Below, one piece after another: positions 30,713 to 48,071 of a DNA stretch of 64,000 nt (its first letter is position 1; each line of letters opens with the position of its first letter). The stretch is from contig NZ_JACJQJ010000049.1 in the NCBI RefSeq assembly GCF_014696615.1, positions 1-64,000 of the forward strand, written 5' to 3'. A program made the position numbers and the translations under genes. This DNA comes from Nostoc linckia FACHB-104 (GTDB lineage Bacteria > Cyanobacteriota > Cyanobacteriia > Cyanobacteriales > Nostocaceae). Below the pieces are notes generated by a model, which saw only the letters and a program-made list of their open reading frames with translations, was not told the DNA's origin and made no database searches.

Positions 30713-30984
30713 CGTTAATAAATAGCTGCCCCAATTTACGTTAAACATTAGAGACTGTTATCCAAATTCAAACAATATCTGCAACTCATTTATATTCTTT
30801 AGGGACACAAACTTTGTGCCCCTATTTTATATATTTATCGCATTATCCTAAAAACTTCAGCTGATACGTGCTGAGATCAAATATTCTGGTCTGAGGTCTG
30901 TCAAGGGTCAAGAGTCTTTGATTTTGAACTCTTGACCCTTGACTAATTAGTGCGAGATATACAATTTAAATGCGTAACAACTTA

Positions 30985-33900
30985 TCAATTCACCTTAACT
31001 TTGAACCTTATATATCCATAAGAATTATTCGGAGTACCAGATCCAGTTGCTTTGGGTAAGGTAGCAGGACTTTTAACTACATTCACCACCACCAAACCAT
31101 TAGTATTATCTGCGGCTGTCATCGTGGTAAAACTCACTGGCTTTTTACAAATTGCTGGAGGAGTGCTACCAGGCGCATAGAAAACACCGCGATCGCCATC
31201 AGCAACATTAGTCATGTAAACTGTTGGCACAGTAGGTAAACTAGTGTTGCTATTGGCAAATGCTATCCCCATATCTGCTTGTGGTAAACCACCGGTATCA
31301 GCAGTCAGTCCATTAAATGCTGTTCCCAAAAAGGTAGTATTACTAGGAATCAAGTCGCAAATTGTGACATTGGTCGCATCTTGAGTACCAGTAGAAAGAT
31401 AATAAATCGTATACTCTAGTTGATCGCCTGGTTTAATATTGCTGAGATTTATAGCTCCAGGTAAGTAAGTATTTTTAGGAGTAGGCCAGTTAGCATGATC
31501 ATCATCGCTAGCTTGCGCGCTTGTCGTATCATCTACAAACCCTGTGATACTCACACCATTAATCGCCGTAATTCTTTTCACCAACAGTAAATTCGGAACA
31601 CCACTACTAGCGGGAACAGTTGTAGTTACAGTAGTCGGGTCAATTGTTCCCGCATTTTCTGTTTGATCAATACTATTACTAGGTATAGTGACATCTGCTG
31701 GTAAAGTAGTGCTAGGGTTACTATCAACGTTATCTGTTTTGACACCAATACTAGGCAAGTTACTAGCAGTGGCTATACTTTGATTACTTAAAACCGTATT
31801 TGCCGGAGTAGCACTGATAATTTTTACAGGAACATTGATAGTAATAACAGCATTAGCAGGTAATGTATAGGGAGTAGAGGCATCAATTAAATTAGCATTA
31901 GGATTGGAACCTGTGTAAGCTGAATTAATAGTAGGAGATGTTTGACTTACTCCAGCAATTTTCACATTCACAGAAATCGGATTCGCCCCAGTTCTAGTAA
32001 CATTACTATTCAGAACATCTGTAATTTGGAAATTAGTAATTGGTACGGTATTAGTATTTTTATAAGCAATTGTCCAAGTTATTTCATCACCAGCCGTAAC
32101 TAAATTATTAGCATCTACATCATTAGTTAATTTGACAGATTTAAATCCTTGCACTTCGGGAATGCTGATTTTAGTAGCGTCAACAGATGCTAGTTGAGTT
32201 TGTGCTATACTGCCTGTTTCAATTTGCGCTAATACATCGCTAGGTAATGTGGTGGTGTTGTCTACATTATCTGTATTAAGTGCGGTGATTCCTGTGCCTG
32301 TACCTACAGCTTGGTTAACTTTATCTCCTACTTGATTAGCATTAATTGTCACAGGAATTTTAACTGCTATTACACCCCCAGCAACTAAAGGCACTGTAGT
32401 ACTGAAAAGATTATTATTGCCGTTACCATTGTAGTTAGTATTAATGCTAGGAGTTGTCTGCCCTACACCACTCACGCTGATAGTTGGTGTTCCGGTTTTT
32501 GTGACTCCAGTTGGTAAAGCATCTGCTATTTGAAAATTGGGAACACTCGCTGTTCCTGAGTTTTTATAAATAATTGTCCATGTGACTGTATCTCCGGAAG
32601 TAACGCTATTACTTGTATCTGCATCTGTGGTTAATTTCACAGATTTGTAACCTGATACTTGAGGCGCAATAATTGTGAATGTAGTTGGATCAATACTGGG
32701 ATTTTGTGTTTGCGTAACGCTACCACTAGGTATGGTTACACCTGTAGGTAATCCGCTAGTGCTACTATCAACATTATCTGTATTTGTGGCTGAGATATTT
32801 CCACCATTAGCTGTTGCTTGATTAGATTTTGTACCTGATGATCCAGCGTTAATATTGACAGGAATTGTAACTGTAATAATACCCCCAGCTTTAAAAGTAA
32901 TTGGGGTTTGTAAAAGACTATTATTGCCAGTGCCATCATAACTACTATTAGCAGTTGGTGCTGTACCTTGAGTATTATTAGTCGTAATATTAATACTGCC
33001 TGATTTTGTTAATCCTGATGGCAATATATCAGTAATTTGGAAGTTAGTAACATCAACTGTACCTGTATTGATGTAAGTAACTGACCATGTAACTGTATCT
33101 CCCGCAGTAATACTACTACTACTATCTAAATCATTTGTCAGTTTTACAGATTTATAACCTGATAAACTTGGCGTTGGCGTAGTAGCAGGAATATTAATGA
33201 CAGTGGGGTCAATTGTTCCTGTTTGAGTTTGCTTAATACTAGCTGCAGGAACTTCTGTTATTCCTGTGTCGCTATCAACGTTATCTGTATTAATGCCTAT
33301 GGTTGTTAAGTTGTTACCTTTGGCTGTGGCTTGGTTGGATTTTGTGCCTGATACTCCGCTATTAATCGTTACAGGAATATTAACAACTATTGTACCTCCT
33401 GCTTTTAATGTAATTCCAGAAGCAAAGAGGTTAGTATTACTAATACCGTCATAACTACTATTAATTGTCGGGGAAGTTTGCCCACCACCACTTGCTGTTA
33501 CGAGAGTAGGTGTTCCTGATTTAGTTACCCCTGATGGTAATGTATCAGTAATTTGAAAATTAGGAACATCAACTGTTCCGGTATTTTTATAAATTACTGT
33601 CCATGTTACAGTGTCTCCAGGGTCAAGACCTGTTGCACCTTGATCGGTTGTTAATTTAACTGATTTATAACCAACTACAGTAGGAGTTCCCACAATTACA
33701 GTTGTGGGGTCAATACTAGAATTTTGAGTTTGCAGAATACTGTTAGTTAGGGGCGTAACTCCTGTAGGTAAACCTGTAGTAGTATTGTCAATATTGTCTG
33801 TTTTTACGCCAACTGTCGGTAAATTTGAGCCATTAGCAGTAGGTTGATTGCTGAGAATTGTGCCATTAGGTAATGCAGCGTTTACATTCACAGGAATATC

Positions 33901-35067
33901 AATTGTAATCACTCCACCTGCTTTGAATGTTACGCCAGCAGTAAAAAGATTATTATTACCTGTACCGTTATAACTAGTATTAGGAGATGGTGCTGTTACT
34001 TGTGTAGCATTGACAGTAATATTAGCAGCAGCTAATGCTGTGGATAGTGTGACTCCTGCTGGTAAAGCATCAGTAATTTGGAAGTTGCTAATATCTACAG
34101 AACCAGTATTAGCATAGGTCACTCTCCAGGTAAGTTTGTCACCAGGAGTAACGCTATTGGTACTATCGTTGTCGGTGGTTAATTGTACTGATTTATAACC
34201 AGAAGTATTTGGTGTAGCTGCTAATGCAATAGATTGATTTGCGCTTGCTTCTTGGCGATGATTGGTAGAATCGCCATTAGCAGGATTGCCGCTAGCTTCT
34301 GCAACTTGACTGACTGTAGGAATGCTGGCATAGCTACTAGGAATAGTTGTCCCATTGGACAAATCTACTGTGTAAACATCAAGATTGCCATTGGCTGTAT
34401 AAGGTTGGTTTTGGCTGCTGGGATTGGGAGGAACAGGTGTATTTCCTAAAGTTACAGTAATAGAATTATTCACCACTGTTTCTGTAACTTTGACAGCTAC
34501 TCGCACTTTTACTGTGCCATTTACAGGGATATAACCATTAGTTGTACCTAACAAATTGATCGTATTATCCCCGCCACTGGGAACATTAACGGCAACAGTT
34601 GTCGCTGAAGCCGCACCTGTACCATCAGAATCAACAGCAATAATCTGAATACCTTCTAATGTTCCACCTGTAATTGTGGCTGTACCAGGGATAAAAAATT
34701 GCGTCGGATCGTTGCCAGTGTTAGTAATAGTGAAGTCAAAATAGACCACATCACCTGTATTAATCCCTGCAATTCCTTGATATGTGCCCGCATTAGTAAC
34801 ATTACTAGGGGCTTCTGTTGGCACACTACTCGAATTAATCGTAATTCCTGCCACTTCTAAAACGGTGACGCTGACAGTGTTAGAAGTCACGGTGTTAGTA
34901 GTGCCTGATGTCTCTCCTTCAAAACTGCCCGTGGCGCTATTGTCGATAGTAGTTCCCGGAGGAGTCGAATCAGCCAAAACCGTTTTTAGTAAAGGTAAGA
35001 AACTGCCACAAATTATGGCAGTGGTTAAAAATAAGCGAGTCGATGCTCGAAGAAAGGAGGTTGACAT
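30985..35067 (-). CDS. Giant exported DUF11-repeat protein
   Basis: The 1360-residue protein has a signal peptide (LFLTTAIICGSFLPLLKTVLA). An N-terminal module (about 35-270) contains VSVTVLEVAGITI and TNTGNDPTQFFIPG. Five DUF11-type Ig-like repeats of about 170 residues start near 287, 466, 638, 806 and 976; each begins GYKSV(K/Q)LT(T/N)D and contains TVTW, YKNTGTVDVPNFQITD and LPSGVTKSG. A C-terminal module starts near 1162 (LLLVKRITAING) and ends YGYIRFKVKVN. DUF11 domains occur in surface and adhesion proteins. It has no LPXTG, GPI or PEP-CTERM tail. It is the last gene of a minus-strand cluster and shares modules with the products of the genes at 35273 and 45447. Its job is unknown. Confidence 0.88.
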   Translation of the reverse strand: MSTSFLRASTRLFLTTAIICGSFLPLLKTVLADSTPPGTTIDNSATGSFEGETSGTTNTVTSNTVSVTVLEVAGITINSSSVPTEAPSNVTNAGTYQGIAGINTGDVVYFDFTITNTGNDPTQFFIPGTATITGGTLEGIQIIAVDSDGTGAASATTVAVNVPSGGDNTINLLGTTNGYIPVNGTVKVRVAVKVTETVVNNSITVTLGNTPVPPNPSSQNQPYTANGNLDVYTVDLSNGTTIPSSYASIPTVSQVAEASGNPANGDSTNHRQEASANQSIALAATPNTSGYKSVQLTTDNDSTNSVTPGDKLTWRVTYANTGSVDISNFQITDALPAGVTLSTALAAANITVNATQVTAPSPNTSYNGTGNNNLFTAGVTFKAGGVITIDIPVNVNAALPNGTILSNQPTANGSNLPTVGVKTDNIDNTTTGLPTGVTPLTNSILQTQNSSIDPTTVIVGTPTVVGYKSVKLTTDQGATGLDPGDTVTWTVIYKNTGTVDVPNFQITDTLPSGVTKSGTPTLVTASGGGQTSPTINSSYDGISNTNLFASGITLKAGGTIVVNIPVTINSGVSGTKSNQATAKGNNLTTIGINTDNVDSDTGITEVPAASIKQTQTGTIDPTVINIPATTPTPSLSGYKSVKLTNDLDSSSSITAGDTVTWSVTYINTGTVDVTNFQITDILPSGLTKSGSINITTNNTQGTAPTANSSYDGTGNNSLLQTPITFKAGGIITVTIPVNINAGSSGTKSNQATANGGNISATNTDNVDSSTSGLPTGVTIPSGSVTQTQNPSIDPTTFTIIAPQVSGYKSVKLTTDADTSNSVTSGDTVTWTIIYKNSGTASVPNFQIADALPTGVTKTGTPTISVSGVGQTTPSINTNYNGNGNNNLFSTTVPLVAGGVIAVKIPVTINANQVGDKVNQAVGTGTGITALNTDNVDNTTTLPSDVLAQIETGSIAQTQLASVDATKISIPEVQGFKSVKLTNDVDANNLVTAGDEITWTIAYKNTNTVPITNFQITDVLNSNVTRTGANPISVNVKIAGVSQTSPTINSAYTGSNPNANLIDASTPYTLPANAVITINVPVKIISATPANTVLSNQSIATASNLPSIGVKTDNVDSNPSTTLPADVTIPSNSIDQTENAGTIDPTTVTTTVPASSGVPNLLLVKRITAINGVSITGFVDDTTSAQASDDDHANWPTPKNTYLPGAINLSNIKPGDQLEYTIYYLSTGTQDATNVTICDLIPSNTTFLGTAFNGLTADTGGLPQADMGIAFANSNTSLPTVPTVYMTNVADGDRGVFYAPGSTPPAICKKPVSFTTMTAADNTNGLVVVNVVKSPATLPKATGSGTPNNSYGYIRFKVKVN

Positions 35068-35272
35068 AGCGATTATCTAGTTTTGGCTGTAAAGTAACTC
35101 CCCCTAATGGGCAGAAGAATTAACTCATATCTGGTATTTCTCCGTATAAACCCTGAGTATGAGAATAAAAGTGCAATAAGGACACATTATTTATATCGCA
35201 CTTGATGGCAAAAGAAAGGATTTGGGGTTTAGTACTGAGTAAGTAAATCACATAGATTTGATTGGCGGTGGA

Positions 35273-38200
35273 TTAATTAACTGTCACGTTAAAGCGGACG
35301 AAACCGTAGGAAGCAAAAGGTGTCCCAGCTGCAGTGGCTTTGGGAACGATAGTGCTGGTACCCAAATCTACTACAACTCCACCATTTGTATTGGTGGCTG
35401 CACCACAAGGGGGATTGGGTAATGATGTGCCAGCACTATAGAATTGACCTCGATCGCTATCTGCAGTGTTGGTGAGTTGTACTTTACCTGTTCCTGTTGA
35501 AGTACTAGGATCAGCCAGTGCTGTATTATCCCAACCTAAAAGAATGCCATTACCGACGGCGTAAGTATCTGCTTGAAAAGTGGTATTTGTGGGAATGCGA
35601 TCGCAGATTTTCACATTCTTGAGATTATCTGTACCACTGGAAAGGAAATAAATTGTGTATTCTAGGTTATCTCCTGGTAATACTCCGGAGACTGAGTTAC
35701 AAGCATTACCAGTATTACAAGCGATCGCTCCACGCAAATATTTATCTTTATTTGTCGGCCAGCCAGATGCATCATCATTGGCGGTGGAATCATTAACAAA
35801 AGTAGTGGTAATATTTGTGCCATTAATCGCCGTAATCCGTTTAACTAGGCTAAGATTTGGCACAGCACCAATGCTAATTTTATAGTCTTCAACTTCACCA
35901 TTGGCGATCGCAGTATTGGGAGTAGAGGTGGTGAGAGTAGCGCTATCACTCAAGCGGAAACGAGCATAAGTATCACCCGCAGTTAATCCCGTAATCCCTA
36001 TCCACTGAATATTGATGTTTTGGGCTGTAGCACTAACTGCGATCGGTTGGATACCTGCTAAACTTGTATTGGAATCATAGGCGACACCTTCACTAACTGC
36101 GAACACACCATCTTTGTTAAAGTCAATCCAACCAACTAAATAAGCTGCCGCCGCCGTATTAGTAACGTTGACTGTAGCAGTGTAAGATGTAGTGCTGGTG
36201 TTGATAGCGGGTAAAGTCACACCATCTTCATCATCAGGTGTACCTGTTGTATCATCGGCATCGGCATTAGCATTTTGCAATGTGCTGTCATCAGCATCAA
36301 TGTTTGCCCCCATTTTGAGAGTACTAACAATGTTATGACTAGCTCCTCCATTAGCTAAAGTTGTTTGATAGTCACCTGCACCTGTACCATTGCTCGTATC
36401 CGGTGCATCGCCATAATCTATCCCAATAATCGTTACATCTTCCCCTGTACTCGAGGCAGAATTATAACTAGCAGTTGTAGTTCCACCTGCCGTAGTCCGA
36501 GTTGGATCGTCATAGGTGGCTGTGGCTGGGTTTTGATAGGTTCCTAAAGCGGTAGCATTAGGAATATCAACTTTAAAAACAATGGTGACAGACTCAGCTT
36601 CCGGAATGGTAAACGTCCCCCAACTAGGATTAGTTGCTCCTCCAGTTGGATTAGTGCTTGTAGGCTGAGTTGCACCACTACTCGTAGTTACTGAGGTAGT
36701 CGAAGCATAGGTAAAACCTGTAGGTAGCAAATCGGAAATCACCACATTAGTAGCTGATGATGTGAGAGCAGCGTTAGATACTGTGATGGTATAAGTCGCA
36801 GTCATTGCGCCCGTTCCCGGTTTAGTGATTGTGGGGGTGCTAGTGGTTTTAGTTACTGTTAATTTCGGTAAGCACTGAGCGCCACTTTTAATTCCTGGGC
36901 TATCGTTGGCAGAAATTGGAGCTAATAAACCTGTGCCGCCTGCTGCATAAAAGTTACGCGGATTAGCATTACCTAATAATCCTGTTTGACCACCAGCTCC
37001 TCCTGCTAAGCTAACGACTGTCGCGGCTGCACTCGTACTAACGACAACACCACCACCGCCTCCACCGCCAGGGCCGTGAGCTTCTCTAAAGGTTGACCAA
37101 CCACCATCCCCACCAGCAGCATTCACGCTGAGATTACTAATCCCCGTTGTACCCGTACTTTTAACATCATAGGCAACAGCATAAACAGTTCCCCCAGCAC
37201 CGCCGCCACCAGCACCATCATTAGCAATGCTTAAACCTTGTACGCCTCTCACATCAAATATGCCACTGCCAGCGATAGTATCAGCGCGCACTACAGCAAT
37301 TCCGCCTCCTGCACCACCACTGCTGTAGATACCAGTACTATTTGCTTTATTATTACCATCAAAATCTGCACCATTCGCATAGGTTGGTGAACCTGTATAG
37401 TTTGTCCCAAGGGTTCTACTAACAGAAGTGGTAGCATCATTGGTTGTACCTGCACCTCCACCTCCGCCCATAAATAGGCGTTCACCATTATTAATTAGTG
37501 CTGTGGTAAATGCCTTACCGCCAAAACCTCCTGATGGCACTTGACTACTCCAGGCTCGTCCCCCACGACCGCCATCACCACCATTGGCACCCCCACCGCC
37601 GCCACTATTTTGGTCGTTAGAAGAAGGATTACCATCTGTGCTACCTCCACCTGCATTGGCAGGTGCACCTCGTCCATAGCTACCATTGGGATAGCCTTCA
37701 TCAGTATTAGTGGTAAATGTTGCTGTCGGGGGGTTACCGTTAGTTGCACTAATGCTACTGGGATCGAAGTAATTAAGTACAAACTTGGGTGTACCAGCAA
37801 TACTTTCTCCTTTGGAACCATTAAAACCAGTTGTGCCGCTATTTTGGGAATTAGTACGATAGTCTGTATTGGCACCTCCACTCGTTCCTCTTAATTGACG
37901 ACCTGCTCCAGCACGAAACCCTTTACCCCGCAGATCGACAATTGTCCCACCACCTAAAGTCATTTTGCCTGCTACATCTATAGCAAAAACTCCACCCACC
38001 GTCCCATCCCAGGGTAAAGCAGTAACGCCAGCATTTAGGGTGACGCTAGAGTATTGAGGTACTCGAATAATCTGGTAACTACGTCTGCCAGCTGTGCTCG
38101 TGGCAGATGCGGAGCGATATGTATAGTTCAATCCTTTACTAGTTCCGGTACCTTTAATGCCAATTGTTGACCCCGACACACTAGTAACGGTAATAAATTC

Positions 38201-38728
38201 ATAATGTCCGGCATTATTAATTGCCGTAAGGCCACTCGCTCCAGTAGAAGGGGGAGTATCAGTAGCAACAGTAGGAGGAGTTGGCTCAGGACTACTATAG
38301 GCTGGTACATCTCCGCCTGTACCATCTCCGTAGCTAGCTGTGTTGCTGGAGTCAATGTCAGCATCTTGCATCTGAATAATCATCAGCAAATCCCCAACTG
38401 CAATATCGGGGGCAGTGTTAGGCAATTTACTAGCTACGTTGACAGTAATCGAAGTTACGCCACTATTGACGGTTCCAGAGTTGGCAGCAAAATAGGAATT
38501 GACAATACCGTTGATGGTGCCAGAGCCATCTTTTCCGGGTGTGGCGCAAGGGTCATTTCCCGCAGCGAGAACAATGTCGTTGTGATAATTGAGAGGACTG
38601 ATAAATAGGATGAGGCTTAAAAAGCCAATTATAAAATTACGGTATAATTTATAACTTATTCGATTGTGTAAAATCATCACTACACTAACTATAATAATTG
38701 CTGCTGCAAGTAAGATTATATTTAACAT
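35273..38728 (-). CDS. Exported glycine-rich protein with DUF11 and GEVED domains
   Basis: The 1151-residue protein starts at an ATG preceded by GAGG with 7-nt spacing. Two hydrophobic stretches lie in the first 55 residues, so it is either anchored or has an unusual signal peptide; an internal ATG at 38677 would give a standard one. In order: a beta-rich N-domain, a Gly-rich part with GGGGG runs (about 350-620), a DUF11 domain (about 630-760, LTVTKTTSTPTITKPG), a GEVED-type domain (about 770-955, YGDAPD to NGEVEDYKISIG) and the same C-terminal module as the 1360-residue protein (LSLVKRITAING to FVRFNVTVN). GEVED and DUF11 are typical of bacterial surface proteins. It lies between the barrel gene and the 1360-residue gene. 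Confidence 0.87.
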   Translation of the reverse strand: MLNIILLAAAIIIVSVVMILHNRISYKLYRNFIIGFLSLILFISPLNYHNDIVLAAGNDPCATPGKDGSGTINGIVNSYFAANSGTVNSGVTSITVNVASKLPNTAPDIAVGDLLMIIQMQDADIDSSNTASYGDGTGGDVPAYSSPEPTPPTVATDTPPSTGASGLTAINNAGHYEFITVTSVSGSTIGIKGTGTSKGLNYTYRSASATSTAGRRSYQIIRVPQYSSVTLNAGVTALPWDGTVGGVFAIDVAGKMTLGGGTIVDLRGKGFRAGAGRQLRGTSGGANTDYRTNSQNSGTTGFNGSKGESIAGTPKFVLNYFDPSSISATNGNPPTATFTTNTDEGYPNGSYGRGAPANAGGGSTDGNPSSNDQNSGGGGGANGGDGGRGGRAWSSQVPSGGFGGKAFTTALINNGERLFMGGGGGAGTTNDATTSVSRTLGTNYTGSPTYANGADFDGNNKANSTGIYSSGGAGGGIAVVRADTIAGSGIFDVRGVQGLSIANDGAGGGGAGGTVYAVAYDVKSTGTTGISNLSVNAAGGDGGWSTFREAHGPGGGGGGGVVVSTSAAATVVSLAGGAGGQTGLLGNANPRNFYAAGGTGLLAPISANDSPGIKSGAQCLPKLTVTKTTSTPTITKPGTGAMTATYTITVSNAALTSSATNVVISDLLPTGFTYASTTSVTTSSGATQPTSTNPTGGATNPSWGTFTIPEAESVTIVFKVDIPNATALGTYQNPATATYDDPTRTTAGGTTTASYNSASSTGEDVTIIGIDYGDAPDTSNGTGAGDYQTTLANGGASHNIVSTLKMGANIDADDSTLQNANADADDTTGTPDDEDGVTLPAINTSTTSYTATVNVTNTAAAAYLVGWIDFNKDGVFAVSEGVAYDSNTSLAGIQPIAVSATAQNINIQWIGITGLTAGDTYARFRLSDSATLTTSTPNTAIANGEVEDYKISIGAVPNLSLVKRITAINGTNITTTFVNDSTANDDASGWPTNKDKYLRGAIACNTGNACNSVSGVLPGDNLEYTIYFLSSGTDNLKNVKICDRIPTNTTFQADTYAVGNGILLGWDNTALADPSTSTGTGKVQLTNTADSDRGQFYSAGTSLPNPPCGAATNTNGGVVVDLGTSTIVPKATAAGTPFASYGFVRFNVTVN

Positions 38729-38881
38729 TTCTTGCCCTCATCAATGTAAAATTTGATATCTAGAGCAATTTTTTGAGTAACTTGTCTTACACTCCTAATT
38801 TTCCTTCTTTATTTGCCTTGATCGCGTGTGAGTTGTTTGACTTTAAGGTTAAATTACTTAAAAAAATACGTATAAGTTTCG

Positions 38882-41800
38882 TCATATTCTTAACTTTCCT
38901 GGTACTTGAGATTCTTTTTCTTGGAATGGGGTAACTTTTTGCTGCCCAAAACCATCAAATAATTCGTTAAGCTTCAGCGTTATACCTAAATATGGCCCTC
39001 CTGCAGAGCGAGTACCAGAAAAATCTCGATCGTCAACTTTACCAAAGACATATCCAGCCGCCAGCCGCAAATTGGGGCTGAGGTAGTAACCAGCCTCAAT
39101 GACAAAGCCTGTTTCTGTATAGGTAGATTGATTAATGACACGGGCTTCACCAACCAAATCCATGCTGTACCCTAGGCGATAGGTAGCACGGAATTGTGCC
39201 AGATTTACTGTAGTAGTGCCAACTAAATCGCTAGCTAGGTAAGAGGTACTATTACGTAAAGCATATTTGCCATAAAATTCCCATTGCCAGTTGGGAGCAT
39301 AGATAGCCTCTAAAGCAAAGGTATGATCTTCGGAACCTGTACCACTACCTAACAAAATAGTGTCAGGAATAGTTGCAGGATTTTGACGGTATTCATAACG
39401 CAACAAGGCGTTAAATTTATCGCTATTGGGGTCACGGTAGGCTAAACCCACCTTGAGGTTGACTGTATCTCCTAATCCTGTGAGTTTTTGATTAGAAGAG
39501 TTTGCCTGTTGATAGCGTACTAAAGCTGTCAGAGACGGAGAAATCTTACCAGTTGCAGCCGCCGAAATCACAGTATTGGAACCACCAGAGGAACTACGAT
39601 ACTCATAACGGGCGCTGGCTTGAAATTGCGGATTATCAGAGTATTCCAGCCCAATACTGTAGCTATCACCACCATTAAATCCAATAGCAGAAGCACTTTG
39701 ACCGGGAGCAAAAGGTTGGGCAAATTGCTGACCCGCTGCAGTCTTTTGGAAGAAGCTGCCAAACACATGTTCGTAAGCTAGATTTAACCGCAAACCAGGC
39801 GCAATAGACCAGCGGTTATTTAAACCAATGGCTCCTTGAGTAGTGATTTCATTAGCACCACCCAAAATTGAATAACGACCAGTCAAGACAGTATCAGTAC
39901 CCAGTTTGTGTTCGCCATTAACACTGAGGCTAGTAATAGAATTACCAGACAATTGACCGCTACTGTAAAACTGTTGGGCAAGACTAATATTAATACCAGG
40001 TACGACAGCCCAGTTGAGTCCAAAAATAGTCCGGTCTGGGTAAACAGTATCCTTGGTTGAAGATAAAGTCAGTTCATTTTGCGCTTGGAAGGTCAGGTTG
40101 CTTGCTAAGGGAACTGTTAAGCGCGATCGCAATTGATCGGAATTACTACTGAGCGCATTTGCAGGAATCCGATCTTCTCGGTTGCGATGAATCCAATCTA
40201 AATCCACAATGGCACTACCCAAGCGTTGTTGAATCCCTGCGGAAATCGTTGTTAGGGAATTATCAACTTGGCTACCAGGAACGGCTTGAGAACGGGGTGC
40301 AAACAGTTCTTCAAATGTATCTAGTGGTTGGGGTGCAATGCCAAAATTATCTTCGTGGTCATATTGCAGTCGGATATTGGTAGTTGCAGAAACTTGACCT
40401 GTTAATTGTGCGCCGTAACGAGTTTGACCTGGAACAAAGCTGATGGTGGCATTATTCGCAAAACCCGTGCCAGCATAACGATAATAGGCACGACCTTGGA
40501 TACCTTTGAAAATTTGTCCCTCAGCTTCTAAGCGGTAAGCTTCACCGCTAACCTGACCCATAACATCAGAATTATTGCTGGAATGGGCATATTCTGCTAT
40601 TAACTTGCTGTTACCACCTAAAGCAATCATGGCATCAGCGCCATAAAGTTCAAAGCCGCGCACCCCTTGATTTTCTCTGACGTAGGTTGCAGCTAACCAA
40701 CTTTCCTGATTGACAGCGCGAGAGAAGTTGTATTGTAAGCGCCCTGCATAAATATCACTATTAGAATCTTGAGTGTCATATTGATAGCTCACAATAATCT
40801 TCCGGACTAAAACTTGTCCATCTCGATCAATATCAGTACGGAGAATTGGTTCGCGGAATAATAAAGTTCCGCGATCGTAATCAATTTCGTAGTCTGAACC
40901 TCGGCCTAATTGTTTACGTTGTAATACAGTTCCTGGACGGTTGAGTTCTTCTAACTCCAAAAATACATTTTCACTACCAGGAACTAATATCCGGCGAGAC
41001 AGAAAATAATAACCACTAGTACCATCAGGCGCGATCGCATCTCGTTGGAAACCTTGGAGGTTATTGCCATAGAATGCTGTAAATTGGAGATTTCCTAAAT
41101 TGTAGTTGGCTTTAAAACCGTGAAGTTGACGGGTAGTAGCGGTATACTGCTGCGATGGTCGAGCAAATTCCTCTGTATTGTAGTCACCCCACATAAAATA
41201 ATCGGGAGTAGACCCTGGAATACCAGATGAATGCTCCAAACGTACATATACGCTGTCAATTGAAGGAGTGACAACAGTAGATGTGGAACTATCCCCATAG
41301 ACAGGATAGTTTTGCTCGCTGAATTGGTAACTACGAAATAGACGGTTATCACAGTTGCAGTCCTCGTTGAGGTTGCGAGAACTGTTGTAAGCACCAGTAA
41401 ATAACCAATCACCAATCGCGCCAGTGGCAAATATTGCGGAATGGAAATCTAATTGGGTTCTGTTATCTCTGTCTGGACGGAGAAAATCACGAAAACTACC
41501 ATAATAATCTGTACCTCTAGCACCTAAGCGTAAATCGACTACACCAGTAAGCAGACTAGGACGTAGTGCTGTTTCAAATTGCAGTTGGGTAAAGGCTTCT
41601 AAATCATTTACCTTGGCTAGAATTCTTACAGTTTGGGCTTTCAGATTAGAACGTAGTGTGGTTGTAAATTGCCCTCCTTTCGCCTCCACTTGAAATCCAG
41701 GTTGGTCAGGCTTAAAGTCCTGACCAACAAAATCCCCAGCCGTAGGTATTAAAGTGATAACAGCATCTTGGTTAGAGCGATTGCCGTTTTCATCGATTAA

Positions 41801-42982
41801 TTGACCCCTAACTGTCGCCGTTGCACGTCCATCAGCAGGAATCCGAGATTCTACTGTTTCTAATGTCAGTTGTTTTGGCGTGCCTCTAATTACTACTTGT
41901 ACTGTCGCTGGCGGTTCTGTACTACCTAAGATTTGTGCAGAAATAGTGTTTTTTCCTGATGCTAACGAGACACCATACCATGTCTGCGTTACTAGGTTAG
42001 TAGCACTATCACTTTCTGTTCGTCCCACTAAAGAAGGGTCTACTAGCGCTCCATTTACGCGCAGTTCTATTTGACTCCCAGCCGGAAATTGTACAGTTAC
42101 CGTAGTTGCTGGTGCATCTAAAACACTGTCAGCTGTTGGAGTCAGAATTTTCACTCCTGTGGAGATAGGGGAAGCATTGGGAGATGGGGAATTAGCATCT
42201 ATATTCTCTTTGACTCCCTCTGCGATTTTAGATAAACCTCTGGGTAATGTGCTCTCAACGGCTGGCTGAAAGGTTTGGATTTCTGTTGTTGGCGTAGTAC
42301 TGCTAGAAGCATCAGCCGCAATTTTAGTTAAGCCTCTGGGTAATGTGGCATCAAATGCTGGCTGAAAAGTTTGAATTTCTGTTGTGTTTGGCGTAGTACT
42401 ACTAGACCTATCAGCCGCAATTTTAGATAAACCTCTGGGTAATGTGGTCTCAACGGCTGGCTGAAAGGTTTGGATTTCTGTTGTTGCTGACGTAGTACGA
42501 CTAGAAGCATCAGCCGCAATTTTAGTTAAGCCTCTGGGTAATGTGGTATCAACTGCTGGTTGAAAAGGTTGTATTCCTAAAGAAAGCTCTGTTTCTTTCC
42601 CTCCTTCCGTTGTCGCTATTGTGCCGTATTGATGGCTAAATTCAGTATCAAATGTTGAGGATTCAAAATTGATAGATGAACTCTCAATCAAGCTAACTGT
42701 TGTAGGTTTTTGTTGATTGTTCTCAACAATATCAGCAGAATTTATATCGATTATTGTTTCAGGAACTTGACTCTCTGGTTGTTCTGAACTGGCTGTAATT
42801 TGTTCAACCTTCTCAGCCTGTGAAGCAGTATTGAAGTTGTCATTAACTTCAACTGCAGGCTGTGAATTATCAGTAGTTTCCCCATGAGCGACAACTGGGT
42901 ACAAAATTATACTCAAGGCTCCTGCCATAGCCCCGATCAAGCTGAGGTTGAAAGTAGTTGTATGGTGGAGTCTGGGTTTCAT
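38882..42982 (-). CDS. Giant outer-membrane beta-barrel protein with N-terminal repeats and Ig-like domains
   Basis: The 1366-residue protein has a signal peptide (about 1-35, ending VVAHGE). A Ser/Thr-rich part follows with four repeats of about 33 residues (about 137-255; QPAV(D/E)TTLPRGL(T/S)KIAA). Next are an Ig-like domain (VTVQFPAGSQIELRVNGA) and a Big_1-type domain (ESRIPADGRATATVRGQLID). From about 480 to the end, alternating amphipathic strands with aromatic girdles (FKANYNLGNLQFTAFYGN, GRAYYRYAGTG, LRLAAGYVFGKVDDRDF) fit a very large beta-barrel. The ATG overlaps the stop of the upstream gene by 4 nt (ATGA), implying coupled translation. I infer it anchors or exports the neighbouring DUF11 proteins. 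No TonB box or plug domain is evident. Confidence 0.85.
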   Translation of the reverse strand: MKPRLHHTTTFNLSLIGAMAGALSIILYPVVAHGETTDNSQPAVEVNDNFNTASQAEKVEQITASSEQPESQVPETIIDINSADIVENNQQKPTTVSLIESSSINFESSTFDTEFSHQYGTIATTEGGKETELSLGIQPFQPAVDTTLPRGLTKIAADASSRTTSATTEIQTFQPAVETTLPRGLSKIAADRSSSTTPNTTEIQTFQPAFDATLPRGLTKIAADASSSTTPTTEIQTFQPAVESTLPRGLSKIAEGVKENIDANSPSPNASPISTGVKILTPTADSVLDAPATTVTVQFPAGSQIELRVNGALVDPSLVGRTESDSATNLVTQTWYGVSLASGKNTISAQILGSTEPPATVQVVIRGTPKQLTLETVESRIPADGRATATVRGQLIDENGNRSNQDAVITLIPTAGDFVGQDFKPDQPGFQVEAKGGQFTTTLRSNLKAQTVRILAKVNDLEAFTQLQFETALRPSLLTGVVDLRLGARGTDYYGSFRDFLRPDRDNRTQLDFHSAIFATGAIGDWLFTGAYNSSRNLNEDCNCDNRLFRSYQFSEQNYPVYGDSSTSTVVTPSIDSVYVRLEHSSGIPGSTPDYFMWGDYNTEEFARPSQQYTATTRQLHGFKANYNLGNLQFTAFYGNNLQGFQRDAIAPDGTSGYYFLSRRILVPGSENVFLELEELNRPGTVLQRKQLGRGSDYEIDYDRGTLLFREPILRTDIDRDGQVLVRKIIVSYQYDTQDSNSDIYAGRLQYNFSRAVNQESWLAATYVRENQGVRGFELYGADAMIALGGNSKLIAEYAHSSNNSDVMGQVSGEAYRLEAEGQIFKGIQGRAYYRYAGTGFANNATISFVPGQTRYGAQLTGQVSATTNIRLQYDHEDNFGIAPQPLDTFEELFAPRSQAVPGSQVDNSLTTISAGIQQRLGSAIVDLDWIHRNREDRIPANALSSNSDQLRSRLTVPLASNLTFQAQNELTLSSTKDTVYPDRTIFGLNWAVVPGINISLAQQFYSSGQLSGNSITSLSVNGEHKLGTDTVLTGRYSILGGANEITTQGAIGLNNRWSIAPGLRLNLAYEHVFGSFFQKTAAGQQFAQPFAPGQSASAIGFNGGDSYSIGLEYSDNPQFQASARYEYRSSSGGSNTVISAAATGKISPSLTALVRYQQANSSNQKLTGLGDTVNLKVGLAYRDPNSDKFNALLRYEYRQNPATIPDTILLGSGTGSEDHTFALEAIYAPNWQWEFYGKYALRNSTSYLASDLVGTTTVNLAQFRATYRLGYSMDLVGEARVINQSTYTETGFVIEAGYYLSPNLRLAAGYVFGKVDDRDFSGTRSAGGPYLGITLKLNELFDGFGQQKVTPFQEKESQVPGKLRI
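42218..42571 (-). repeat. Tandem repeats of about 96-99 bp in the barrel gene
   Basis: Four near-identical units encode QPAV-TTLPRGL-KIA-followed by a Ser/Thr spacer. The minus-strand units share CCTCTGGGTAATGTG and TTTCAGCC-type blocks when read on the plus strand. Units differ slightly in length because the Ser/Thr spacer varies, so copy number is probably variable between strains. Confidence 0.85.
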
Positions 42983-44517
42983 TTCTTAATTTGCTCCGGG
43001 AAGGCTGGGGTGACGGCGAAATTCATACGTACTAGCCCACCAGGTTCTAAACGCACTAAGCGAGATTGGCTATTACGTTCGCGGAATTTCTCATTTGGAG
43101 CTAGGGTGTAACCATTGACGCTGCTGAGGTCTAATACACCTGTATGGTTTCCTGGCAAAACATTAGCTACAGAGAATAGTCCATTGGGGTCTGTAGTAAT
43201 GCGGTTACCATCCTCCAAGAAAATTACAGCATTAGGAATTCCCTTCTCACCAGGTTGTTGTTCCCCGTCAAAGTTTCTATCAACAAACACGCGACCGATG
43301 ATTGTGCCACAATCAGAGACTATTCCGGGACGAATTTTTAATTGGTAAGTGGCTGGCCCATCTTTAGTACTAAAACGGTTATCAGCTCGTTGTGCATTCA
43401 CAATCGCACTGTTGCGACCAGTTCCCCGCACCGCATCGCTGGTAAGTTGCACCCCATAAACAATATTCAGTGTTTTTCCGGCACTAGCAGTAACATCTGC
43501 GCGTAATGTAATAATGTTGCCATTGGTTTGTGAGGAGATAGCGACTTGTTGAGAGTCTATTTCACCACGGATTGATTGTGGTAAAAATTTGAATCCTAGT
43601 GGTAAGTTATCGGTGATGACCAGATTATTTAAACCAGCATCTGATAAATTCTTGATTGTCAGGCGGTAAATAACTGTATCTCCAGGTTCAGCAGTAGCGC
43701 GATCGCCTGTTTTGATAATCTGTATTTGATTGGGTTGACACATCCCTGTAGTAAATCGAAATGCTAATAAGTCCAGTCCTACAGTTTCTGCATTGGGGAC
43801 AAGGGCTACTGTGTCTGTAAAATTAGTACCGCCTGTAGTGGTAATGGGTTGACCATCTAGGGAAGTAGCAACATACCTAATAATGCTGTTATTGCCATTC
43901 CCATTATTTTCCACAATTTGAATCTTGATGCGTCGTTGTTGGTAAATTGAATTTGCAGGTGGATTGATGACTAAAATATAAGTACGACCTGGATTTGTTT
44001 GTCCTTGATTTGGATCTAATAAAAAGTTATAAGTACCTCTTGGTTCGCTATTAGTCAGAAAGTAAGGATTACTATTTTCAATATTTGGTTTTAATCCACC
44101 AGGTATTTGATTGTCAGGAATATCAGGAACTTCTGTTCGCGTTAGTGGTAATAATTTCCCTAATTCTGTGCCTGTGGGATCGCTGGGATTAGGTTCATAT
44201 ACAGCAATAGAAAAGCCAGTGTAATCAGGTAATAATTCCCCACTACAGCCTAAAATTCTACCTAATGGGTCAACTAATTTATCAGAGCCAAGGTTGATTT
44301 GAGAAGAAGTTGATAGATATTTTTGATTAGTAGCTGTATCTGTATAAGTATATTGAGCTTGATTAATAAAAGCTGGACGTACAACTTGGTTTTCAGCTTG
44401 TTGCGCTCCTGCTGGTAGAGAACCATGCAAGATATTGCTCACAAGAAGCGTTGCAGTTAATTTCTGCAACCATCTACTATTAGGAGTGAAATGCTTTTGG
44501 ATTTTGGGACAGAGCAC
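42979..44517 (-). CDS. Exported DUF11 protein with SdrD/carboxypeptidase-regulatory-like C-domain
   Basis: The 512-residue protein starts at GTG 44517, chosen because AGGAG lies 9 nt upstream. A signal peptide follows (LTATLLVSNILHGSLPAGA). An N-domain of about 230 residues is unassigned. A DUF11 domain lies at about 265-365 (TGDRATAEPGDTVIYRLTIK, TDNLPLGFKFLP). An SdrD-B or carboxypeptidase-regulatory-like domain (about 400-505; IIGRVFVDRNFDGEQQPGEK) precedes the end. The stop overlaps the start of the barrel gene (ATGA). Such regulatory-like domains often sit at the N-terminus of outer-membrane barrels, so this may be the separate periplasmic part of the barrel protein. Confidence 0.86.
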   Translation of the reverse strand: MLCPKIQKHFTPNSRWLQKLTATLLVSNILHGSLPAGAQQAENQVVRPAFINQAQYTYTDTATNQKYLSTSSQINLGSDKLVDPLGRILGCSGELLPDYTGFSIAVYEPNPSDPTGTELGKLLPLTRTEVPDIPDNQIPGGLKPNIENSNPYFLTNSEPRGTYNFLLDPNQGQTNPGRTYILVINPPANSIYQQRRIKIQIVENNGNGNNSIIRYVATSLDGQPITTTGGTNFTDTVALVPNAETVGLDLLAFRFTTGMCQPNQIQIIKTGDRATAEPGDTVIYRLTIKNLSDAGLNNLVITDNLPLGFKFLPQSIRGEIDSQQVAISSQTNGNIITLRADVTASAGKTLNIVYGVQLTSDAVRGTGRNSAIVNAQRADNRFSTKDGPATYQLKIRPGIVSDCGTIIGRVFVDRNFDGEQQPGEKGIPNAVIFLEDGNRITTDPNGLFSVANVLPGNHTGVLDLSSVNGYTLAPNEKFRERNSQSRLVRLEPGGLVRMNFAVTPAFPEQIKK

Positions 44518-44529
44518 TTAACATTTCTC

Positions 44530-44700
44530 CTATGAAATACCAAGACTGTAAATGTGGTTGGGGATTGGGGATTGGGGACTAGGGATTGGGGACTGGAGAT
44601 GAGGGATGAGGAAGATAAGGAAGAAATAATTAATGACTTTTGACTTTTGACTTTTGACTTTTGACTTTTGACTTTTGACTTCCCCGTAGCAGTACTAGTC
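44530..44700. repeat. GGGGATT and TTTTGAC heptamer repeats
   Basis: GGGGATTGGGGACT units are followed by about six copies of TTTTGAC (about 44635-44680). They fill the gap between two genes of the DUF11 cluster and show the same STRR types seen at other intergenic sites. Confidence 0.8.
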
Positions 44701-44713
44701 CCTCATCCCTTTT

Positions 44714-45283
44714 TCAACGAACTTGCACTTGATAAGATGCTTTTACTATTGACTTTGCACCTACAGATGGTAGTTTTAAACGGATATGGGTGTAAGCAGT
44801 GGCTGGTGCAGCTTGCGTTTCCACTTTGCCATTGGGTAGAGTAACTTTGACAGTGGGATTTTCTAGAAAGCTGCGTCCATCATCAATGCTGTAAGTAATT
44901 TTGGCTTCTTTATTAGCATCCACATTTGCAGATTTCAGCACATAAACCATTCCTTTGGGAATGGGTTGATTGAGAGTAAGGTTCTTAATTGGATGAGCGT
45001 TTTTATTTTCGCTACTCAAGGTGTAGCGCAGCACATCTCCTGGTTGGACTACAGCTTGACCTTTTAAAGGTTGCCATTTTTTGGTTTGTTTACCCTGCTG
45101 ATCCTTTTCGATTACTTGCTTTTCTGCATCTAGGCGCAACTGCACTTGACCTTGATATTTGGTATTTTGTGCGATCGCACTTCCCGATTGCCAAATACTT
45201 GCGACTCCTGGTATTTGGCTGACGAAGGGAACTGTCGCAATTAAAGCGATCGCTCCCATACCTGCAATAGAAACACGCTTCAT
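44714..45283 (-). CDS. Small exported DUF11-related protein
   Basis: The 189-residue protein has a signal peptide (GMGAIALIATVPFVSQIPG, cleaved near AIAQN). One beta-sandwich follows with the DUF11 pattern: VVQPGDVLRYTLSSENKNAH, IKNLTLNQPIPKGMVYV and ITYSIDDGRSF. It ends SYQVQVR, similar to the ends of the large cluster proteins. Alone it could be a single-domain subunit that packs with the bigger proteins. It lies between the 881-residue and 512-residue genes, on the same strand. A HIP1 site lies in the signal-peptide codons. Function is unknown. Confidence 0.82.
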   Translation of the reverse strand: MKRVSIAGMGAIALIATVPFVSQIPGVASIWQSGSAIAQNTKYQGQVQLRLDAEKQVIEKDQQGKQTKKWQPLKGQAVVQPGDVLRYTLSSENKNAHPIKNLTLNQPIPKGMVYVLKSANVDANKEAKITYSIDDGRSFLENPTVKVTLPNGKVETQAAPATAYTHIRLKLPSVGAKSIVKASYQVQVR

Positions 45284-45382
45284 GTCAATAAACCTCAGAA
45301 TATTTTCAGATGTTGATGAGTGATTTATTTTTCCCTACTTGTGCTAGAAAATTGTTCTAGTGGTCTATGTCATTAATTTTTT

Positions 45383-45437
45383 AAGTCCGTAGTCATGACT
45401 ACGGACTTGTTAACCCCTCTTTTATGACGAAGAGGGG
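45383..45437 (-). terminator. Two adjacent hairpins between cluster genes
   Basis: A perfect 26-bp palindrome (AAGTCCGTAGTCA and its complement, 45383-45408) is followed by an 8-bp stem CCCCTCTT/AAGAGGGG (45414-45437). On the minus strand they come right after the 881-residue gene. There is no clear T run, so they may attenuate rather than end transcription into the next genes. Confidence 0.5.
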
Positions 45438-45446
45438 CAAAGGGTT

Positions 45447-48071
45447 CTAGTTCACTCGACGTTGGAAGGTAAATGTTCTTTGCTCTTGCGGTATAACATT
45501 ACCGTTAGCCGTATCAACATACTTGGTAACATCTGTAGCTTGAGTGCTTCCAGTTTGGTTACCAGATGGGAAGAACTGGATGGTTCCACTCGCAGAATCC
45601 GCAGCCTGTGGGTTAGTTATGTTACTAGTATCAATGATACCGTTGCCATCATTGTCTACTGCCCAATTATTGGGAGATGCTGTACCATCTTCAGTAATTA
45701 CAACATTGCCGGCGTTCAAGACCACATTACCTGCACCAGCTTGGACATTGGAAATATTTGTGTATCGAATCTGATATTCAATAATATTTCCAGGTGCAGG
45801 ATTTCTGGGTACATCAGTAACGTTAGAATTTGGATCAATATCTACGCCGTTGGGATGTGTGTACTTCGGTGTACTTTCAAAGTCATCCTGACCTGCACCT
45901 ACTGCTGGCCCGCTTCCTTGTAAGATTCGTGAAACTTTGACTAACTTGAGGAAGCCAGTGTATACCCGGTCAATAGTCACGTTAGTGGATGTATTTGCTC
46001 CTACTGTAATATTGGCTTGAATCGGTACAGGGTAACCAAATTCTGCATCATTTGCATAATCTGTCAAAGTATCAGTTGACAGCTTGGTACCAGTTGGTAA
46101 ATTAACTTCTACACCGTAGCTGGTAGTTGCACCTGAGGCAACACTGGGAATTGTAATCGCCGTACCACTAGTCAGAGCAAAACCAGAACCTTGAGTATAG
46201 GTATAAACTGCAGAATTACTACCAAAGGTAATAGTTGCCGTTGTACCAGTAGGTAAGTCTAGAGGATTGGCTGGTGTGATCGGTACAAGTGTGATATCTC
46301 CTGTACCTGTGCCAGTATTCTGTAATGTGTTGGTGAAACCTACTGGTGAGGGGTCAATTTTACTACCTGGCAATGTATTGGCAGGAATTAAAGAAGATTT
46401 ATTGGTAAAGTCAGTTGCAGTTGTACCATCCGGCCCGGTTGCACCTGGTGCATTTAAAGGCCCATTCAGTACAGATGCAGCCGTAGCAGCTTGAATTTGG
46501 AAGGTGTTAACTTCACCGCCAGGGCCAGCACCAGTGTTGTTATTACTTGCGTCAACACCTTGTGTCGTGGGGTCAGCAACACCATTAGTAACGGTATTAT
46601 TTACTGCTGTGGGGCTATCAGGTAGACCATCATTATTAAGATCTGTACCAGCAGGAGGTGTCATACCACCTACAGGGCCGTCGTAGTTACTGGGATTTTG
46701 GTCACCAGATTCATCATACACAGGTAAACCACCATTAGGAGTTTGACCAAATACTTGCGCGATATTGTTAATAGACAAAGTTGCTGGTGTACCAACAACA
46801 CCTAATTTAATTGAGAAGCCTGTCAAAGTAGTATTTACAGGAATATTATCAGCAGCTACTAGAGTCTCTTTGACAAAACCCACACGTGTTACAGAAGCTA
46901 AAGTATCAGATCCTTGTAAAGTACCGCCTGCTTGGAAGGTTTTCCATAGTACTGATGTACCATCATTTGCCTTAGTTGAACCAATCGGTGTAGTGCTGTA
47001 AACTGCTGTCCAACCTACAGGCGCTGTTGGCGCTGCTTTTAAGACTGTACCTGCAGGAATATCATCAGAAATTAAGATGTAATTCTTGGTAGTATTTCCA
47101 TCCACACTAATACCTGCAGTACCTGCTAGCGGATTTGGAGTAATACCTAAACCAGTAACATCATTGCCTTCAACCCTGACACTTAAATTGTAGGTAACAC
47201 TATCATCTGAGAGATTAGCAGGTGTTGGTGTTCCAGGGGCAGCATCATTATCTACGTAAGCGCCACGAGTTTTCAATAATGTTGCTAAGGCTAGATTTTT
47301 CTGGACAGCGCCAACTGTAATTTCTTGGATGTCGCTAGCTTCACGAGTCCCATTGACTGGTGCACCAGTGATTTCAGGAGCGCCAGTACCATCTGGGTTA
47401 TCTACGGTGTAAACGTCACCACCGTTAATATTACTGCCTATACGTTCTACGTTCTGAGCATTACCTGGTGTGTTACCTAGGGTAACTGTAATAAGTTCAC
47501 CTGTATTCGCACCAGCTTGGACGGTGACTGGTACACGTACTAATACAGTACCGTTAACAGGAACGGAAGGTGTAACTACCTCAGCAGCATTGAAGTTAAC
47601 CCAGGTTGTGCCACCATCAGTACTGTATTGCAATTCGCCACTAGTGGTACTACCAGCTAATATGCCAGAAACTGTACCAGGCCCAGTTGTGGTTGCTAAG
47701 TTAGGAATCCGGAATCTGGTGGGGTCATTACCTACGTTCTTGATTTCGTATGTATAGATAATTAAATCACCCACCTTAACAGGATCGGCAGGGGTCTGAT
47801 CCTCAGGTACACCTCTAGGTGCTACGGTAATACCTGCAACTTCTGCTACTGTCACGGTCACAGTGTTAGAGGTTGCATTAATGGTTGTTCCTGGATTGTT
47901 CGGATCTTCGTAAGTCGCAGTTGCAGTGTTGCTGATTGATTGACCAGCAGCAGTCCCTTCAGCTAATACAGGTGTAACAAACTGGAAAATGCCGTTAGCC
48001 AATAATACTGTTGCTACCAAAGAACGGTAGAACTTTGAAGGCTGTTTGATAAATCTCTTGGTTTTTGGCAT
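45447..48071 (-). CDS. Exported DUF11-family surface protein, first gene of the cluster
   Basis: From the ATG at 48071 the protein has 874 residues; a TTG at 48092 would add seven. A signal peptide (SLVATVLLANGIFQFVTPVLA) is followed by an N-module closely resembling that of the 1360-residue protein: VTVTVAEVAGITV and VGNDPTRFRIPN. Several Ig-like beta-domains follow (NLALATLLKTRGAYVDNDAA; VSRILQGSG), and the C-terminus is EQRTFTFQRRVN. It has many Asn/Thr/Gly residues and few Lys, typical of secreted surface proteins. It has no sorting signal. The 1.2-kb AT-rich non-coding region upstream probably carries the promoter of the cluster. Confidence 0.87.
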   Translation of the reverse strand: MPKTKRFIKQPSKFYRSLVATVLLANGIFQFVTPVLAEGTAAGQSISNTATATYEDPNNPGTTINATSNTVTVTVAEVAGITVAPRGVPEDQTPADPVKVGDLIIYTYEIKNVGNDPTRFRIPNLATTTGPGTVSGILAGSTTSGELQYSTDGGTTWVNFNAAEVVTPSVPVNGTVLVRVPVTVQAGANTGELITVTLGNTPGNAQNVERIGSNINGGDVYTVDNPDGTGAPEITGAPVNGTREASDIQEITVGAVQKNLALATLLKTRGAYVDNDAAPGTPTPANLSDDSVTYNLSVRVEGNDVTGLGITPNPLAGTAGISVDGNTTKNYILISDDIPAGTVLKAAPTAPVGWTAVYSTTPIGSTKANDGTSVLWKTFQAGGTLQGSDTLASVTRVGFVKETLVAADNIPVNTTLTGFSIKLGVVGTPATLSINNIAQVFGQTPNGGLPVYDESGDQNPSNYDGPVGGMTPPAGTDLNNDGLPDSPTAVNNTVTNGVADPTTQGVDASNNNTGAGPGGEVNTFQIQAATAASVLNGPLNAPGATGPDGTTATDFTNKSSLIPANTLPGSKIDPSPVGFTNTLQNTGTGTGDITLVPITPANPLDLPTGTTATITFGSNSAVYTYTQGSGFALTSGTAITIPSVASGATTSYGVEVNLPTGTKLSTDTLTDYANDAEFGYPVPIQANITVGANTSTNVTIDRVYTGFLKLVKVSRILQGSGPAVGAGQDDFESTPKYTHPNGVDIDPNSNVTDVPRNPAPGNIIEYQIRYTNISNVQAGAGNVVLNAGNVVITEDGTASPNNWAVDNDGNGIIDTSNITNPQAADSASGTIQFFPSGNQTGSTQATDVTKYVDTANGNVIPQEQRTFTFQRRVN

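Follow-up and report, generated by a model that had tools for sequence, protein, structure and literature searches.

The window analysed here, the 64,000 nucleotides at positions 1 to 64,000 of contig NZ_JACJQJ010000049.1 of Nostoc linckia FACHB-104 (source assembly of 9.39 Mb in 181 contigs), carries six consecutive minus-strand genes, named P6, P5, P4, P3, P2 and P1 in reading order. P3 encodes a predicted outer-membrane barrel, and P2 and P1 encode long proteins that end in the same C-terminal domain (CTD) and are treated here as cargo. The conserved unit is a four-gene core, P6-P5-P4-P3, with exchangeable cargo, rather than a fixed six-part complex. It is well supported that the barrel, P4 and CTD-tagged cargo depend on one another as one functional unit. 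We propose, with a probability of about one half, that this unit serves as an outer-membrane system to assemble and anchor fibres of immunoglobulin (Ig)-like beads stiffened by isopeptide bonds, and that it recognises its cargo through the CTD.

In such a system, P6, P5, P4 and P3 would make up the machine. P3 would form a very large outer-membrane barrel with two Ig-like domains in the periplasm and a small insert as a possible plug of the pore, and P4 would dock on its periplasmic side. Cargo, here P1 and P2, would reach the periplasm by the Sec route and fold into Ig domains, some of them locked by Lys-Asn isopeptide bonds. The barrel complex would recognise the cargo through the common CTD, and the cargo would pass through the barrel or remain seated in it, with its N-terminal stalk displayed outside. 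If correct, the proposal explains how many filamentous cyanobacteria could equip their surface with stiff fibres of protein. It would then also suggest what DUF7925 proteins, the CTD and an unnamed barrel family with relatives from Nostoc to Thermus do, and would make the CTD a tag for predicting cargo by sequence alone.

When GTDB contigs were scanned with P3, 243 relatives were found; as the figures for near loci come from the best 80 of these 243, they describe a sample of near relatives. Of the genomes that carry a name, Nostoc carneum NIES-2107 (94%) and Calothrix membranacea FACHB-236 (95%) gave the closest barrel matches. The core was complete, in the same order and on one strand, in all 73 near loci with at least 5.3 kb of upstream sequence, whereas seven of the window's other genes, trkA and trkH among them, were each found in at most 5 of the 56 loci that extend 8 kb to either side. 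The core is therefore a unit that moves between genomic places. For P6, P5 and P4 this bears out the co-conservation with the barrel on which an earlier note, made from the window's sequence, had placed weight. That note had also inferred one surface complex of all six proteins, a view that is not supported in that form: full-length matches to P1 and P2 (94-97%) occur in the two nearest relatives only (L008 and L062), and in eight genomes the cargo genes lie far from the barrel. Long but weaker P2 matches (33-51%) were found in L038, L080, L082, L127, L133 and L141, and in the other loci the places of P1 and P2 are taken by different proteins, most of which resemble them chiefly over the last 200 residues.

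A second sample of 19 more distant or paralogous cyanobacterial stretches (L123-L141) retained P4 in all 19, which makes P4 the most constant partner of the barrel, along with P6 in 11 and P5 in 10 (leaving out L123, where the short P4 gives the P5 match). A CTD gene lies on the barrel strand in 16 of the 19. The 4-bp overlap between the P4 stop and the P3 start recurs in 82 of 109 loci; P4 is recognised in 101 of these 109.

The distribution of the CTD across the phylum follows that of the barrel. Both were sought in the same 244 cyanobacterial genomes, scoring up to 13 CTD and up to two barrel candidates per genome. The barrel was found in 31 genomes and the CTD in 28, all 28 of them barrel-positive; none of the 213 barrel-negative genomes gave a CTD (Fisher p ~1e-33, kinship ignored). 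The three genomes that gave a barrel and no CTD are distant relatives in which the barrel matches more weakly. The number of CTD proteins per genome is 1 to 4. Among 53 genomes with DUF11, the CTD is present in 28 of the 30 that have the barrel and in none of the 23 that lack it, so the link of the CTD to the barrel is more than DUF11 abundance. DUF7925, the domain of P6, occurs in 23 cyanobacterial genomes, every one barrel-positive. Within the window's family, 15 of the genomes listed are barrel-positive and 13 barrel-negative, and within genus g5 the numbers are 2 and 6, a mixture that makes several independent gains or losses likely.

In 52 of the 61 loci with at least 9 kb of downstream sequence, a CTD gene follows the barrel on the same strand. 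In eight of the other nine the next genes look unrelated, and the ninth (L064) has a beta-helix protein. The nine genomes without linked cargo show one barrel each; eight of them encode CTD genes elsewhere (one has two), on another contig in seven cases and 193 kb from the barrel in G249, and one has none. The eight unlinked CTD regions (16-19 kb each) contain neither a barrel nor P4. CTD genes in G091 and G174 were also considered as remote cargo and rejected, because both adjoin further type-B barrels; third barrels in these two genomes had been missed by the phylum survey.

Type-B loci are those without P6 and with a short P4, and the second barrel of the Nostoc linckia genome (L123, G000:C140) is an example. 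Trees were built from 41 barrels and 51 CTDs, excluding L038, whose contig begins inside the barrel and whose type label was wrong, and including L121. The A/B label needs a single change on each tree, compared with at least five (barrel) and at least six (CTD) in 2000 shuffles. CTD type thus follows barrel type, and the unlinked CTDs, as expected, group with type A. Barrel distances correlate with CTD distances (r 0.57 over 38 loci and 0.46 over 29 type-A loci), a correlation that shared descent alone could produce.

That second system (L123:7883-17906) comprises a short P4, a barrel with 54% identity to P3, a beta-helix and OmpA-like protein, and a CTD protein. An exported beta-helix/Ig protein, with an OmpA domain at its end in many loci, lies directly 3' of the barrel in type-B loci and in many type-A loci; missing from the cluster in this window, it is a frequent fifth component elsewhere. 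It was found in 21 of the 80 near loci (L059, L063 and L064 among them), some of whose contigs are cut, and in L123, L126, L128, L129, L131, L132, L134, L135, L139 and L140; its Pfam domain assignment comes from two examples. Since it occurs in both types, it was rejected as a mark of type B. OmpA parts, which bind peptidoglycan, also adjoin the barrel in Acinetobacter and Croceibacterium. The recurrence of these parts next to the barrel was counted in favour of the proposed system.

P3 itself reaches the cut-off of no Pfam or NCBIfam family and has no match in a PDB sequence search, and a PHROGs search returned nothing for P3, P6 or P4. Two AlphaFold2 models were made, of residues 271-1366 (predicted local distance difference test score, pLDDT, 69.2; predicted template modelling score, pTM, 0.47) and of residues 470-1350 (pLDDT 66.9, pTM 0.53). 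In the DSSP string of the second, a count by hand gives eight long strands, the small inserted beta domain and 32 more strands. An ideal 40-strand barrel is calculated to be about 73 Å across, which would in principle be wide enough for a folded Ig domain. The inserted domain is rich in invariant residues and lies within the part matched in Thermus and Deinococcus (279 to 707-713). Weak Invasin_D3 and Big_1 matches, under cut-off, cover residues 371-466, and in relatives the matched range of P3 often begins past the N-terminal repeat region.

When the barrel-only model was compared using Foldseek, all 50 matches listed of 741 were outer-membrane proteins of various kinds (SlpA, LptD, FimD/PapC, SprA and TonB receptors), with template modelling (TM) scores of at most 0.31. 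With the longer model, which includes the Ig domains, many matches were to Ig parts of glycoside hydrolases, and TM scores reached 0.38 against small porins only, normalised to porin length. The Foldseek viral library gave nothing useful for the P3 models, and a scan of viral contigs for more diverse barrels found none. Matches of outer-membrane type at low TM scores mark P3 as barrel-like and leave its family unplaced. The earlier note had considered that the barrel might belong to a characterised transporter family, which found no backing in the sequence searches or among these 50 listed matches.

All six proteins open with a Sec-like signal stretch, judged by reading the translations, as the earlier note had described; that of P2 is atypical, being long with two hydrophobic stretches, so that the true start may be an internal Met. 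The same note's count of five DUF11-type proteins needs one correction. P1 and P2 have DUF11-type matches above curated cut-offs in both Pfam and NCBIfam, as does P4 (DUF11 in Pfam at 40 bits, cut-off 24.6; its SdrD_B match of 27.9 bits falls narrowly below the cut-off of 29.7), and P5 has one in NCBIfam only (TIGR01451, 27.1 bits, cut-off 24). P6 falls below the DUF11 cut-off, and its clear domain is DUF7925 (Pfam, E 3.4e-54). P5 is of a size that leaves room for about one Ig domain.

In P1, TIGR01451 matches six stretches and TIGR04226 five, all above the NCBIfam cut-offs. Its isopeptide-type repeats lie at residues 290, 466, 637, 806 and 974, each with K..D..N by eye, so that P1 reads as tandem DUF11-type domains with candidate Lys-Asp-Asn isopeptide triads, as in CLIPPER proteins. 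P6 has comparable residues: K274, D343 and N443 (numbered in its 881-aa open reading frame, ORF) are each about 99% conserved among 82 sequences. In its accessible text, PMC12617251 lists DUF7925 among predicted isopeptide families, with Q8YS00 (Lys264, Asp326, Asn415) as an example, and the three P6 residues were paired with these by spacing alone. The N-terminal module shared by P1 and P6 proved real on alignment: with low-complexity masking off, 280 positions align at 36% (E 2e-35), although a comparison of the whole proteins at the tool's own settings gave no significant similarity. The Gly-rich N-terminal region of P2 resembles AgmC_N, a myxobacterial gliding motility family, at 114.6 bits, below the cut-off of 275; P2-like N-terminal regions also occur in L133 and in L141 (G047), which is distant.

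The C-terminal module shared by P1 and P2, which the earlier note had described, aligns at 47% over 220 positions (E 6e-40). The note had found no known sorting tail on any of the proteins; none of a known kind is present, but this CTD is an unlisted conserved C-terminal domain. It is about 200 residues long and, in an alignment of 49 sequences, starts with a KRIT motif, has two invariant cysteines and ends in a last strand resembling SYGFIRFRxxVK. K19 and D93 (both 49/49) and N176 (48/49) fit the isopeptide Lys-Asp-Asn pattern, and further D and N positions are conserved besides them. The idea that the CTD lacks an Asn of its own and forms an intermolecular bond was dropped in view of this conservation. 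L120, from Deinococcus, and L121, in which the end of the cargo reads out of frame, were excluded from the alignment (A1) and included in the hidden Markov model. Among 120 ORFs scoring above 60 bits, a figure that includes genes counted twice from overlapping loci, the CTD match ends no more than two residues from the C-terminus in 115; the other five extend 4 to 58 residues beyond it, and no protein has two copies. The domains found in 45 CTD proteins are varied, with DUF11 in 33, SdrD_B in 9, LTD in 6, GEVED in 5, SpaA in 4, a beta-helix in 1, and others.

Relatives extend beyond the Cyanobacteria. A tblastn search of plasmid records with P3 returned 33, including Thermus (12), Deinococcus, Acinetobacter, Vibrio and alphaproteobacteria, none of which matched 80% or more of P3 at a single location. 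In Thermus thermophilus HB8 pTT27 (L117) and Deinococcus ficus pDFI1 the match runs from residue 279 to about 710, covering the Ig pair, the first strands and the insert. A DUF11-SdrD_B protein lies 5' of the barrel relative in both, again with a 4-bp overlap, and the clusters also contain a P5-like protein (28-29%) and a further DUF11 protein, which in Thermus has a weak DUF7925 match (E 6e-4). With identities of 24-37% over parts of the proteins, these clusters are relatives whose orthology is unproven. The Thermus cluster, a Deinococcota version on a plasmid (L117, 1178-15534), lies a few kb from cas3. In Acinetobacter haemolyticus p4 (L113) and Pacificitalea pDY25-D (L115), one ORF of about 2000 residues matches P4 and P3 together and is, as read from its sequence, a natural P4-barrel fusion. 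Plasmids of Nitratireductor (L118) and Sinorhizobium (L119) encode a long DUF11 protein (1859 aa and at least 2988 aa, respectively) directly before the barrel relative, with no P5 or P6 match within the fetched stretch.

Several observations weigh against the proposed assembly and anchoring system. The distant genomes G032, G035 and G047 have a barrel-like gene and no recognised CTD, which suggests an older or divergent form, and no CTD was found in G252, which also has the barrel. The limited number of candidates scored per genome means that copies can be missed. P6 and P5 are absent from many of the distant loci (8 of 19 lack P6), and the barrel match in Thermus and Deinococcus spans only about one third of P3. 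The A/B split, with support of 1.0 among barrels, has 0.54 among CTDs. Because barrel-adjacent genes supplied most of the CTD profile and most cargo adjoins the barrel, the co-occurrence is partly linkage. The medium confidence of the P3 models makes both the strand number and the plug provisional. Lastly, no energy source or partner inner-membrane gene is found among the neighbouring ORFs.

The main rival, which we regard as doubtful, is that the barrel is only an anchor, a static base in the outer membrane to which DUF11 proteins that reach the surface by other means bind as an adhesin or surface-layer complex. The first Foldseek match of both models is SlpA/SDBC, the large outer-membrane barrel to which the surface layer of Deinococcus is tied, though with a TM score of at most 0.26, an identity of 9-11% and no match in the PDB sequence search. 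OmpA-type domains adjoin the barrel in many relatives and suggest a static link to the wall, and a partnership of CTD and barrel would yield the same co-occurrence. Against this, no alternative export genes were noticed in the neighbouring ORFs, and a static anchor needs no barrel so large and with an insert, which is an argument and not a test.

It is improbable that the proteins form a chaperone-usher-like polymerisation system in which P5 (or P6) passes subunits to the barrel, to be strung together by exchanged strands. The ushers FimD and PapC have a barrel with an insert after the first strands and exported Ig-like partners; here, too, there is a small exported Ig-like partner, an insert near the start of the barrel and sequences that end at a strand-like stretch, and FimD and PapC are among the Foldseek matches listed. 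Yet the Usher family (PF00577) has no match in P3 or in the genome, with a positive E. coli control, the TM scores stay at or below 0.31, and the P3 model has about 40 strands against 24 for ushers. P5 fits about one Ig domain and, in a search confined to that protein within this genome, gave no pilus-chaperone (PapD-like) match, only weak Ig/DUF11-type ones. The cargo, moreover, consists of long multidomain chains, unlike the small repeated subunits of chaperone-usher pili.

Operon hitch-hiking, in which the genes merely travel together and the CTD is one DUF11 domain among others, not tied specifically to the barrel, is very improbable. Cargo genes are mostly barrel-adjacent and are the source of most profile rows, and DUF11 is common, but the idea fits poorly with the unlinked CTD genes in eight of nine genomes, the failure to find a CTD in the 23 DUF11-bearing, barrel-free genomes and the matching of CTD and barrel subtypes. 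Least probable of all is a TonB-receptor-like importer of a nutrient or cofactor with DUF11 proteins as surface-binding partners. In its favour, one partial relative, in Nitratireductor, bears the annotation TonB-dependent receptor, and TonB receptors are among the Foldseek matches listed; against it, no TonB plug or receptor family matches P3, and the partners are Ig proteins of fibre type in which no transport domain is recognised.

Beyond assembly and anchoring, we tentatively raise a separate, undescribed outer-membrane secretion system that has relatives in Cyanobacteria, Deinococcota and Proteobacteria, with a barrel of about 40 strands gated by P4, which in cyanobacteria would export folded, isopeptide-locked fibre proteins via a CLIPPER-like CTD with an invariant cysteine pair. 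Such a barrel is possibly larger than the 36-strand SprA, the largest single-chain barrel known. Type IX secretion (T9SS) is similar in its very large outer-membrane barrel, its Ig-like C-terminal cargo domain and its cargo genes, linked or elsewhere. However, the Foldseek TM scores of P3 to T9SS translocon chains are only 0.10-0.19, the CTD of about 200 residues is DUF11-like and longer than the 72-position Por_Secre_tail model, and the small number of CTD proteins per genome was counted as a further difference. SprA_N did not match P3 at E values up to 1; it was also not found in the genome, in a search that gave no match in its controls either, so that its absence is unproven. Por_Secre_tail did not match P1 or P2; its weak matches in the genome are at C130:24014-24184 (26.9 bits, cut-off 23) and C140:41213-41338 (22.7 bits), the latter just before the type-B CTD. 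No T9SS motor genes were seen in the locus, though no search was aimed at the GldL/GldM and PorV/PorU families.

Searches of open-licence literature found no paper on this operon, in keeping with the earlier note, whose author knew of no described system with this set of genes. Among the closest known systems are the DUF11 (CLIPPER) fibrillar adhesins and the grappling-hook filaments (GhpA, GhlA), which share tandem DUF11 beads, isopeptide triads and surface fibres; in their accessible parts, these papers deal with stalk domains and filaments and describe no outer-membrane barrel with P4, P5, P6 and CTD (PMC12617251, PMC13319060). From the same accessible parts, DUF11 can form an isopeptide bond (PMC12617251) and DUF11 bead filaments occur on cells of Litorilinea (PMC13319060). 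Type XI secretion (DUF560, Slam) is comparable in having an outer-membrane protein with co-occurring cargo and in the same gene-neighbour reasoning, according to the text available (PMC12282271). DUF560 has no Pfam match to P3, and the P3 barrel is far larger than type XI barrels. Judging by their available text, that paper (in which most hits are DUF1194) and one on a DUF3233 autotransporter (PMC3206015) do not concern this locus, and the use of a DUF11 protein's signal peptide in a cyanobacterium (PMC13297417) has no bearing on the operon.

The six ORFs reported in the earlier note are all present and uninterrupted in the window, between 30985 and 48071 (Table 1). The mechanical ORF of P6 opens further upstream, at TTG 48092. 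A consensus scan listed no terminator-like hairpin on the minus strand in the gaps between the six genes; the scan returned 21 such sites against 14.1 expected. A promoter scan (42 sites, with 47.9 expected by chance) was uninformative.

Table 1. Features of the six-gene cluster, in window coordinates.
Feature	Position	Strand	Description
P6	45447..48071	-	874 aa from ATG; exported; DUF7925 domain; core gene 1
P5	44714..45283	-	189 aa; small exported DUF11-type protein; core gene 2
P4	42979..44517	-	512 aa; exported; DUF11 and SdrD_B-like; core gene 3
P4 stop / P3 start overlap	42979..42982	-	4 bp
P3	38882..42982	-	1366 aa; predicted outer-membrane barrel protein (AlphaFold2 models, Foldseek); core gene 4
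P3 N-terminal repeats	42221..42568	-	Residues 139-254; four copies about 33 residues apart, FQPAxxxTLPRGLxKIA
P3 Ig-like domain pair	41588..42154	-	Residues ~277-465; strands in AlphaFold2 model
P3 barrel domain	38933..41575	-	Residues 470-1350; about 40 long strands in AlphaFold2 model
P3 inserted small beta domain	40829..41011	-	Residues ~658-718, between strands 8 and 9; plug candidate
P2	35273..38728	-	1151 aa; putative cargo; Gly-rich AgmC_N-like region, DUF11, GEVED and CTD
CTD of P2	35276..35884	-	Residues 944-1151; 198.5 bits in whole-genome search, with P2 in the profile
P1	30985..35067	-	1360 aa; putative cargo; N-terminal module in common with P6, five isopeptide-type repeats, CTD
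CTD of P1	30988..31662	-	Residues 1139-1360; 222.5 bits in whole-genome search, with P1 in the profile
Terminator-like hairpin	30857..30874	-	3' of P1; consensus scan alone

Elsewhere in the window, and unrelated to the cluster, a methyltransferase and a prenyltransferase gene at 51824-53926 resemble, by reading, a pair from the tocopherol pathway.

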